Assembly: GCF_002188635.1 (NCBI RefSeq)
Contig: NZ_NINX01000025.1
Span: 1-64,000, forward strand
Direction: 5' to 3'
DNA from: Pigmentiphaga sp. NML030171
Lineage (GTDB): Bacteria; Pseudomonadota; Gammaproteobacteria; Burkholderiales; Burkholderiaceae_B
Length of the DNA: 64,000 nt
Position numbers and translations under genes: made by a program. Numbering within the stretch: the first letter of the stretch is position 1; each line of letters starts with the position of its first letter. Below are positions 49,612 through 57,431 of the stretch, piece by piece. The notes under the pieces were generated by a model. That model was not told where the DNA came from. It saw only the letters and a program-made list of their open reading frames with translations, and ran no database searches.

Positions 49612-51411
49612 CTACGCCGCCCCGTTCTCGTCCAGGCGCAGCGAGCGGGCCAGTTCGTTGATCCGGTCCTTGGTCTCTTCGACCAGCGAGCCGATCTCGC
49701 TGGCTGACGTGGACGAACGCATGGCGAGCTTGCGCACTTCGTCGGCCACCACCGCGAAACCACGCCCGGCGTCGCCGGCGCGGGCGGCCTCGATGGCCGC
49801 GTTCAGCGACAGCAGGTTGGTCTGCGCGGCGATCTCGTTGATGACCGCCACGATCTGGCCGATCTGCTCGCTGGAGGCCAGCACGGAATTCATGGCGCTG
49901 TGCGTGGTCTCGCGCTCGGTATGCTCGGCCTGCACGTTCTTCAGGAAGGCGGTGTAGGCGATCTTGCCCTCGAGCCGTATCTTCGACAGCGACAGGAGGC
50001 CCCATACGCGCGTGCCGTCCTTGCGCTCGATGGGCACCTCGCGGCTGGTGCCCACGATCTTGTCCTTGCCGGTCTCGCGGTTGGCCTCGACCAGCCGGTC
50101 GTGGTCGGCCTGGATGGCATGGGGCACCAGCATCTTGACGTTCCTGCCCAGGACCTCGTCGCGGCCGTAGCCCCACAGGCGTTCGGCCGCGGCGTTGAAG
50201 AAAGTGACGTTGTTCTGTTCGTCGATGGTGACCACCGCGTCCAGCGCCTGCTCCAGCGTCTGGTTCATCATCTCGCGCGCGTTGTGCTCGCCCGTGATGT
50301 CCTTGACGAAGGCCGTGTAGGTGATGCGGTCGCCCACCTTCACGCGCGACAGCGACAGGCTCGCCCACACCTTGGCGCCGTCCTTGCGCTCGAGCCTCAC
50401 CTCGCGGCTGGTGCCCACGATCTTGTCCACGCCGGTGCTGCGGTTGGCGTTCACGTAGCCATCGTGGGCGGCCTGGATGGCCTGGGGCACCAGCATCTTG
50501 ACGTTGCGCCCGATCACCTCCGCGCGGTCATAGCCCCACAGCCGTTCGGCGGCCGAATTGAAGAACGTGACGTTGTTCTCGGCGTCGATCGAGACCACGG
50601 CGTCGATGGCCTGCTCCAGCGTCTGGTTGATGACCTCGCGCACTTCTCGCTCGCGCGAGATGTCCTTGACGAAAGCGGTGTACAGGATACGGTCGCCGAC
50701 CCGGATCTTGGACAGCGACAGCGCGCCCCAGGCCTGGGTGCCGTCCTTGCGCTCGACCTGCACCTCGCGACTGGTGCCCACGATCTTGTCCTTGCCGGTC
50801 TCTCGGTTGGCCTGGACCAGCCGGTCGTGGTCGGCCTGGATGCCGCGCGGCACCAGCATCTTGACGTTGCGCCCGATCACCTCCGCGCGGTCATAGCCCC
50901 AGAAGCGCTCGGCGGCGGCATTGAAGAAGGTAACGTTGTTCTTCTCGTCGATGGAGACAACGGCGTCCAGCGCCTGCTCCAGCGTCTGGTTGATGGTCTC
51001 GCGCTCCTCGTGCTGCGCGGTGATGTCGCGCACGAAGGCGGTGTAGGTGATGTGCCGGCCGATGTTCACCCGCGACAGGGACAGGCTGACCCAGACCTTG
51101 CGGCCGTCCTTGCGCTCGATCTGCACCTTGCGGCTGGTGCCCACGATCTTGTTCTGCCCGGTCTCGCGGTGGGTGTCGACATAGCCATCGTGCGCGGCCT
51201 GGATGGCCTGGGGCACCAGCATCTTCACGTTGCGCCCGATCACCTCGGACCGCTCGTAGCCCCATAGCCGCTCGGCCGCGGCGTTGTAGAAGGTCACGTT
51301 GTTGTGCTGGTCGATGCTGACCACCGCATCGATGGCCTGCTCCAGTACCTGGGTCGAACGATCCGGACGGAATTCCAATACGCGCGCCAAGCGACTTGCG
51401 GTTCCCGACAT
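49612..51411 (-). CDS. Four-PAS chemoreceptor-like protein with truncated MCP tip
   Basis: A 599-residue soluble protein without signal peptide or membrane segment. Four PAS units of 121 residues start near 20, 141, 262 and 383, each with GRNVKMLVP and KIVGTSR(E/K)V. The last ~96 residues hold the MCP hairpin tip ([33 protein letters not shown]) but lack most of the usual long methylation helices. Architecture resembles BdlA/Aer-like cytoplasmic sensors of redox or energy state, with twice the PAS count of BdlA. Units 1 and 3 are most alike ([15 protein letters not shown]) and 2 and 4 alike (ADHDRLV, LSLSKIR). ATG 51411 follows AGGAGGT. Confidence 0.85.
49903..51354. repeat. Four tandem 363-bp PAS-coding repeats in A-B-A-B order
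   Basis: Unit boundaries on the plus strand are about 50992-51354, 50629-50991, 50266-50628 and 49903-50265. Every unit is exactly 121 codons. The alternation of two sequence types points to duplication of a two-PAS block after an earlier single-PAS duplication. High DNA identity makes the array prone to copy-number change by recombination. Confidence 0.8.
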
Positions 51412-51538
51412 GCCGACCTCCTGTGAATAACAACAGGATCTCGGCGCGCGCCCTGCGTGAATGGATCGGGGACAACCCTGAGCATGCATAACTTCGGTCA
51501 TCGCGAGCCTTTCTGAAGCGAAAGCCGCGACGGAGCAA

Positions 51539-53563
51539 TCAATCCAGGCGGATGCCGAATTCGGCGACGATGGCGCCCGCGCGCGCGTAGTCGTCGCGCG
51601 TACGGCGCGTGAAGTCTTCCGCGGATCCTCCCACCGGCACTTCCCACTGCGCGCGGAATTCCTTCTGCACGTCGGGCTCGGCCAGGATGGCCGCGACCTC
51701 GCGATTGAGCCGCGCGACCACCGGGGCGGGCGTGCCCGCGGGCGCCAGCATGCCGTACCAGGTCGTCACGTCCAGCCCCTTCACGCCCTGTTCCTCCAGC
51801 GTCGGGACCTGGGGCAACAGCGGGGAACGGGTAGGCTGCACGACGCCCAGGGCCACCATCTTGCCGGCCTGGACATGCGGCCAGAGCGAGCCGGGCACGC
51901 CATAGATCAGGTCGATGTGGCCGCCCAGGAGGTCGGTGATGGCGGGCGCCGTGCCCTTGTAGGGCACGTGCGTGATCGACACGCCCGCCGCGCGGTTGAA
52001 CAGTTCTCCGGCGATGTGCATGGGCGAGCCGCTGCCCGGGCTGCCATAGCTCAGGCCCGGGCACTTCCTGGCCAGCGCGACCAGTCCGGCCGCGTCGGAC
52101 ACGCCCAGGCCGGGCCGCGCGGCCAGCAGCAGCATGCCTTGCGACAACTGGATGACCGGCGCGAAGGCGCGCACGACGGCTGGCGTACTTGCCTTGGGCA
52201 ACAGATGGGCGGCCAGGATGTCCTGCTGCATCTCCTGGGCGTAGTCCTGCTTGGCCGCCCACTCCGCGCCTTCGTCCGGCAGGCAGGGGGCGGGCCGCGT
52301 CAAGGCATAGCCATAGGTCTGGCATACGCCCTCGCCTTCGGCGCGCATGCCCTTGGGCCGCTCGCCCGCCTGCACGGCGCGGATGCCCGCCCGCAACTGG
52401 CGGCGGAACAAGGCGATGCCGGCATCGGCGGCGGTGAGGTTCTCGTTGGCCTGGATCGCCATCCTGCCCTGCGCGACCCAGGCATCCCAGTCGCCCGGGT
52501 TGCGGTGCCGTTCCTCGTAGCTGCGCTCGCCCGTCTGGCCGAAGGTGATCGTGGCAAGGTAGTCGGCACGCGCTTTTTCGCTCCATTTGGGCGACAAATG
52601 CAGCCATCCCATGTGCATCGCGTTGAAATCGTCGTTGGGCACGATCCAGGTCGACAGGCCCAGGCCATGGCTGGAAGGCAGTTGGCGCCGGTAGCGCAGC
52701 TCGATCGCCTGCCGTCTGCCCGGCTCGCCAGCCATGTTCTCGGGAATCGCGTCGCCCAGGCGGATGCCGTCGGGCACGCGGGCGATGTTGGGCAGGATCA
52801 GCTCGTTGACGCGGCAGTAGTACAGGTCATGCACGCGCCGCACGCTGGTGGTGATCTGCCCGATGGGCGTCTCGCAGGCCTGGATGACGGGAAGATCGTA
52901 GGCGTAGTCGCCGAACTGCTGCACGTCGAACATCGAATGCAGAAAGGTCAGGTGGATGGGATCCTGCGTGTTCTCGCGCAATTGCACCCAATTGCATGGG
53001 TTATGCCAGCAGAACGGCAGATATTCTTCCTCGTCGTGGTGCATGAAGTCGTAGTCGGGAAATGGCGGCCGCTGGTCGGGCGGCCCCATGTACGCGAACA
53101 CCAGGCCGCGGAATTCCCGCACCGGATAGGCGCCGTGGTACATGCGGGACGCCAGCGCACCCGGCACCTTCTCGCCCGGCACCTTCTCGCCCGGCACGTC
53201 CAGCAGCGCGCCGTCCACGCCGTAGTGCCAGCCATGGTAGGCGCAGCGCAGCCCGTGGTCCACGATCAGCGCGAACTCCAGCGAAGTGCGGCGATGGCTG
53301 CAATGGCGCTCCAGCAGACCGAGTGCGCCGGAGCGGTCGCGGAACACCACCAATTCCTCGCCCAGGATGGTGATGGGCACGGGCAGGTCCTTGATATCGG
53401 CGGCCAGCGCCACCGGCTGCCAGAAACGGCGCAGGTACTCGCCGGCGGGCGTGCCGCGGCCGACCTCGGCCAGTTCCCGGTCGGGCGTCGTGGATTGCCG
53501 GCGGTCGTAGCCGCCATACGGTCGGGTTGCGTTGCGGACATCCTGCGCCATCGCGAGCCTCAT
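51539..53563 (-). CDS. Rieske oxygenase fused in frame to a truncated Bug receptor
   Basis: A 674-residue continuous frame. Residues 1 to ~460 are a phthalate-type Rieske oxygenase: C88-x-H90 (RHCSHRR), C107-x2-H110 (CAYHGWHYG), mononuclear iron region [16 protein letters not shown]. From about residue 465 the sequence becomes Bug receptor: [56 protein letters not shown], ending [10 protein letters not shown]. The Bug part lacks its signal peptide and about 120 N-terminal residues, so it cannot act as a periplasmic receptor. A deletion joining adjacent genes, junction near 52160-52210, is the simplest explanation. A second in-frame ATG lies at 53551. The oxygenase half may still function. Confidence 0.85.
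53161..53190. repeat. Perfect 15-bp tandem duplication inside the Rieske domain
   Basis: CCGGCACCTTCTCGC occurs twice in a row (53161-53175 and 53176-53190), encoding [11 protein letters not shown] at residues ~125-135, just after the Rieske cluster. It keeps the frame and looks like a slippage event adding five residues. Confidence 0.85.
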
Positions 53564-53726: not shown

Positions 53727-54650
53727 ATGGACCATTGCAAACAGCTCGAATCCTTCGTTGCCGTGGCGCTGCACGGCAGCTTCTCGGCCGCGGCCCGCAG
53801 CGAAGGCGTGGCTCCCAACGTGATGCGCGAACGCATCGACGCGCTGGAGGGGCGCCTGGGCGGCCGGCTGGTGCACCGCAGCCCGCGCGGGCTGTCGCTG
53901 ACCGAGGCGGGCGCCGGCTTCCTGGATGCCGCGCGCGCCTTGCTCGCCAACCTGGAACAGGCCGAGGCGGCCGTCTCGGCGCGCGCCTCGGGCGCGCACG
54001 GCCACCTGCGCGTCACCGCCCCCGCGGGCTTCGGGCGGCGGCACATCGCCCCGCTGATCCCGGCGCTGGTGGCCCGCCATCCTTCGCTCGACATCACCCT
54101 GGACCTGCACGACCACTACGCCAGCCTGCCCACCGGCGACTTCGATTGCGCCTTCTTCATCGGCGACCCTCCCGACAGCAGCCAGGTCGCGATCCCGCTG
54201 GGCGGGACGCGGCGCGTGGTGGTCGGCAGCCCCGCCTACCTGGACCGCGCGGGCGTACCGGCCCGCCCCGCCGACCTCGCCCGCCACAACTGCCTGTGCT
54301 TCCACGGCGAAAGCCAGATGCAGGCCCGCCATTGGCAGTTCCGGGTGGATGGCCGGCTGCTGCAGCAGCCGGTCTCCGGCACGCTGCGCTGCTCGGACGG
54401 ATCGACGCTGCACCAATGGGCACTGGCCGGCATGGGCCTGGCCTGGCGCGCGCTGTGGGAGGTCGACGACGACCTGCGCCACGGCCGGCTGCGGTCGGTG
54501 CTGGACGACTACGCGGTGTCGAACGTGGGCATCTACGCCGTGGTGCCCCAGCGCCGGCACATGCCGTCGCGGGTGCTGGTGTTCATCGATCACCTGCGAC
54601 AGGCCTACGGCGATCCGGGTTATCCGTCGGCGCCGGCGGCCCGGCTGTAG
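53727..54650 (+). CDS. LysR family transcriptional regulator
   Basis: A 307-residue LysR-type regulator. The HTH lies at residues ~5-62 ([40 protein letters not shown]), and the effector domain is of the CrgA/DmlR-like type ([20 protein letters not shown]). It is divergent from the Rieske-Bug fusion gene and most likely regulated the pathway to which the oxygenase belonged. Its 3' end faces icd, with a terminator hairpin between. Confidence 0.9.
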
Positions 54651-54670
54651 GCGGTCGTTCGCGCCGTCCC

Positions 54671-54703
54671 GAAAAAGAAAAACGCCCGCGCAAGGCGGGC
54701 GTT
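54671..54703 (-). terminator. Intrinsic terminator of icd
   Basis: The stem AACGCCCGC (54681-54689) and GCGGGCGTT (54695-54703) is perfect with a 5-nt loop. On the minus strand it is followed by a T-rich run (complement of 54671-54680). It lies 53 bp beyond the icd stop. Confidence 0.85.
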
Positions 54704-54756
54704 CCAGATCCAGGCAGCAGCGCCGCGTACTGGCGCGCCGCAGTCCCGGCGGAGCT

Positions 54757-57431
<2,675 letters not shown>

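Follow-up and report, generated by a model that had tools for sequence, protein, structure and literature searches.

The window, a stretch of 64,000 nucleotides from Pigmentiphaga sp. NML030171, carries on its minus strand a single open reading frame (51539–53563) in which a Rieske oxygenase runs directly into part of a Bug/TctC receptor. The original prediction had described an uninterrupted frame of 674 codons at this place without giving its strand, and the open-frame listing confirms 674 codons plus a stop, read without a break from an ATG. The start of the protein was set by comparison with relatives, and translation likely begins at M5 (53551), the position where the relatives share a start codon. 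The oxygenase part (52211–53551, minus strand) corresponds to residues 1–442 of the 455-residue enzyme of P. kullae, with a duplication of five residues in addition, in agreement with its description as a nearly complete Rieske oxygenase. The receptor remnant (51542–52210, minus strand) corresponds to residues 99–321 of the 321-residue P. kullae receptor and has no signal peptide.

Pfam profiles place a Rieske domain at residues 48–127 of the fusion (54.4 bits), a LigXa_C-like match at residues 157–210 and TctC at residues 464–670 (142.7 bits, profile positions 66–273 of 274), the last reflecting a sequence match that is retained over the second lobe and the C-terminus of the receptor. The [2Fe-2S] cluster ligand set, C-x-H and C-x2-H, is intact at C88, H90, C107 and H110, exactly as first reported. 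The oxygenase part also contains a D201-x2-H-x4-H stretch, a pattern which we take to be typical of the oxygenase iron site, and together with the LigXa_C-like match it suggests a catalytic domain with a two-histidine iron site. An in-frame 15-bp tandem duplication, encoding GEKVP, lies in a loop past the second pair of cluster ligands; its extra copy, placed by alignment at 53183–53197 on the minus strand, is found in none of the four relatives described below.

Among solved structures, the best matches to the Rieske part are the phthalate 4,5-dioxygenase-like entries 7fjl and 7fhr (E values of 1.9e-36 and 5.5e-36). These matches are local, covering mainly query residues 28–265, and the listed lengths of 439 and 441 residues mean that neither protein has a receptor part. 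The Bug/TctC receptors 2dvz, Bug27 (2qpq) and the terephthalate-binding protein 8hka align with almost the entire mature part of the intact P. kullae receptor, whereas the remnant in the window begins only at receptor residue 99 and lacks the signal peptide. A structure prediction for the whole fusion, made from an alignment of only 10 rows, gave a mean pLDDT of 33.0 and a pTM of 0.27, values too low to support any conclusion.

The genome of the window, a draft assembly of 57 contigs totaling 5.86 Mb, groups with Pigmentiphaga. Comparison with its congeners revealed that the orthologs of both halves are two separate genes in four of the ten, with identities of 94–99% among the matches listed, and that the fusion is present in none of the ten. 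The genomes with the intact pair are those of P. kullae K24 (G002), MKUP01000033 (G003), SPDP01000001 (G005) and G007. In all four, a gene for a 455-residue oxygenase is followed, after 40 bp and in the same orientation, by a gene for a 321-residue receptor, which begins with a signal-peptide-like N-terminus. The pair of P. kullae K24 (L011/L040) and those of the three related genomes share the gene order and orientation of the window, but differ from it in the 40-bp spacing and in the presence of both the receptor N-terminus and the last 13 residues of the oxygenase. Identity to P. kullae across the retained residues is 98.7% for the Rieske part and 98.2% for the receptor part. The same pair, again separate and 20 bp apart, occurs in Ramlibacter aurantiacus (79% and 56% identical), where the oxygenase frame stays open far upstream of the matched region. 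A more distant homolog (L044, 42% identical) has no receptor match within the 7.7 kb examined. Given that the genes are separate in the four congeners and in Ramlibacter, the separate state is ancestral.

In alignments with the four relatives one by one, exactly 376 bp are missing from the window every time, and a single clean deletion accounts for the difference. In P. kullae, the ends of this deletion are two exact copies of an 8-bp direct repeat, TCCTGGCC, 376 bp apart and located one in each gene; in the other three relatives, the receptor-side copy mismatches the repeat at its last base. Alignment with P. kullae places the remaining copy at 52211–52218 on the minus strand. The join thus falls at fusion residues 449–451, and not at about residue 465, where the receptor had been predicted to begin. 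The lost stretch comprises oxygenase residues 443–455, which are the final 13 of the native C-terminus, the stop codon, the spacer and receptor residues 1–98. With the latter have gone the signal-bearing stretch of the relatives, and hence any export signal, and the first ligand loop (GYPPGAGTD in P. kullae), leaving the two receptor lobes no longer both complete. The predicted absence of a signal peptide therefore holds, but what is missing amounts to residues 1–98 of the 321, a stretch that contains the signal peptide, rather than about 120 residues of the first lobe.

When breakpoints were drawn at random in these two genes, at least 8 shared base pairs were found in only 0.06% of 300,000 trials, and the repeat therefore points to a short-homology route. 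The fusion of adjacent genes by deletion is a known kind of event, and fusions born in this way likewise involve codirectional neighbors, short direct repeats and a kept frame. The suggestion that a deletion had joined neighboring genes is accordingly borne out, both by the separate, adjacent genes of the relatives and by the direct repeat that flanks the missing segment.

The frames of the two genes are offset by one base, and 376 leaves a remainder of one, so that the frame was kept across the junction. Such an outcome is less exceptional than it appears. Of the repeat pairs of at least 8 bp between the two genes, 60 out of 87 would join them in frame, and in random trials the joins were in frame for 31% of the pairs that shared no base and for 66% of the 181 pairs that shared at least 8 bp. 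This rise with repeat length presumably comes from codon-position base patterns common to both genes. Since about two-thirds of the repeats of this length give in-frame joins, the kept frame is unsurprising; the original prediction was right that the frame is perfectly preserved, and overrated how striking this is. An unbroken frame in a fusion of this type is weak evidence of function, and the case is an instructive example of how a young deletion between short repeats can yield an unusual two-domain protein whose frame is flawless.

The sequence around the junction also bears on the age of the event. A tract of 1.2 kb (minimally 52181–53396, with outer limits of 52089–53425, as delimited by marker sites and sliding identity) is identical to P. 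kullae except for one substitution, at position 52436, and for the duplication and the deletion, which are the other changes within the tract specific to the window. The substitution is synonymous, as the dN/dS result implies. Marker sites where the window sides with P. kullae and not with G007 and G003 number 39, and 31 of them fall in the tract. Of 946 segments of 900 bp compared with P. kullae, the most similar starts at 52224 and is 99.9% identical, while the mean over the compared part is 93.0% (s.d. 2.6). A near-identical tract in surroundings of about 93% identity is a sign of recent homologous exchange. The exchanged tract is also exposed by the jump in dS against P. kullae, from 0.024 in the Rieske half to 0.215 in the receptor half. 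It spans the junction and covers no fewer than 30 bp of the receptor side, where 6 of the 31 shared marker sites lie. Since the junction lies within the near-identical tract, the fusion is probably young. The deletion most likely took place during or after the exchange, or was brought in with it.

A comparison of synonymous and nonsynonymous change in each half had been proposed as a check on the fusion. Against P. kullae, dN/dS is 0.062 in the Rieske half and 0.048 in the receptor half; given the youth of the fusion, these values have no power to test it, and the low value of the receptor half is largely a record of evolution that preceded the fusion.

The position of the tract leaves room for a variant of the deletion reading that differs in timing only, in which homologous recombination brought in, in one piece, a fused allele born in another lineage near P. 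kullae. The near-identical tract, which includes the junction and extends at least over 52181–53396, fits this scenario as well as it fits a deletion after the exchange. However, P. kullae has the pair intact, and the same deletion is found in no other genome among the 11 of the genus; we therefore regard whole import as rather unlikely, if still a serious candidate.

Taking these results together, we estimate a probability of roughly 0.88 that a 376-bp deletion between 8-bp direct repeats joined the oxygenase and the downstream receptor gene in frame, destroying the receptor and leaving its remnant as a passenger, and that it did so probably recently. Replication slippage or another short-homology route probably made the deletion, which may also be a mutation that arose in culture. 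As aligned with the relatives, the deletion took away the receptor start together with the signal peptide and the greater part of the first lobe, and thereby destroyed the receptor, and the near-complete oxygenase swapped its last 13 residues for a receptor remnant of 223 residues. An ordinary deletion thus explains why two such unlike halves share one unbroken frame, and the event looks like an ordinary accident that destroyed a receptor and not like the origin of a new kind of protein. As a protein, the fusion is of little importance. As for the suggestion of a decaying gene, no frameshift decay is seen. Counting against an accident are the lack of any stop or frameshift and the receptor omega of 0.048, which continued use would give likewise.

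The passenger reading of the remnant draws on the related receptor TphC. In TphC (PMC8556258), the ligand is held between two domains, and the lower-domain loop β1–α1 (residues 30–36) closes on a loop of the upper domain. Judging by similarity to aligned Bug proteins, the counterpart of the TphC loop would be the GYPPGAGTD stretch of the P. kullae receptor, which is deleted in the window. Lacking this loop and any means of export, the remnant would not be expected to function as a receptor, and most likely binds no ligand. The oxygenase part may be active, impaired or misfolded, each of which is possible. Its lost tail is partly conserved in Ramlibacter, so that a reduced oxygenase activity is possible.

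It is very improbable that the fusion is an assembly error, with the 376 bp present in the organism and dropped from the draft. The fragmentation of the assembly into 57 contigs and the exactness of the junction repeat would allow such an error, but the junction is internal to a contig of 169,808 bases, and the removed stretch appears elsewhere in the assembly only as paralog-like matches, the best of them 72% identical over 225 of 395 bases. Moreover, assemblers rely on overlaps much longer than 8 bp, and as a matter of general knowledge a repeat of this size is far below what would mislead them. Among the remaining receptors encoded in this genome, the one closest to the remnant shares 50% identity with it. 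Bug receptors are greatly expanded here, with 153 scored query matches, nearly all to the receptor part.

The distribution of the fusion was examined with a 311-bp probe spanning the junction. A through-match was found in the genome of the window only, that is, in one of 11 genomes of the genus; the two sides of the probe lie apart in four of the 11, and the remaining six have no orthologous match, one of them showing short, weak matches only. The Rieske part was also searched against 399 genomes of the order at E values up to 1e-60, a threshold that reaches close Rieske homologs only. This search returned four matches, of which one is the window itself and the others lie in frames of 496, 539 and 439 residues, below the approximately 650 of a fusion. 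A literature search found no paper on a Rieske protein fused to a TctC solute-binding protein. In the genomes compared, nothing indicates that the fusion has spread to, or been kept in, any genome but this one.

Least probable of all is that the fusion is a working new protein, whose remnant senses a ligand or steers oxygenase assembly in the cytoplasm: the unbroken frame, the four cluster ligands with the D-x2-H-x4-H stretch, the 442 of 455 oxygenase residues retained and a receptor half that is stop-free with a low dN/dS would suit it, but the fusion occurs in one of 11 genomes of the genus, it is probably young, with the low dN/dS mostly predating it, and it has lost the loop of the first lobe, and in TphC one loop per domain closes on the ligand (PMC8556258). 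The cytoplasmic ligand-sensing extension envisaged by the original prediction finds no support on the same points, the fusion being seen in one genome only, young in appearance and deprived of the lobe-1 stretch that makes up half of the ligand pincer in TphC. Equally improbable is a stable, active oxygenase in which the receptor lobe alters assembly, substrate delivery or regulation and which we happen to see soon after its origin; if true, it would be a Rieske–TctC architecture without a second example in the searches made here.

The neighborhood of the fusion differs from that of the relatives in a further respect. A divergent gene for a LysR-type regulator (53727–54650, plus strand) adjoins the pair in the relatives too. 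In the four relatives, approximately 4.5 kb lies between this gene and that for isocitrate dehydrogenase (window site 54651–54757; L056 10838–15341), comprising a second LysR gene, a GMC oxidoreductase, another Bug receptor and a short-chain dehydrogenase. This block has no match in the genome of the window at E values up to 1e-100. A tree of isocitrate dehydrogenase places the four relatives in one group that excludes the window (support 0.985). The block could have been either lost by the window or gained by the four relatives, and we did not count it as evidence of decay. On the other side of the fusion, at 49612–51501, lies a gene for a chemotaxis-type protein with four mutually very similar PAS repeats and an MCP signaling domain.
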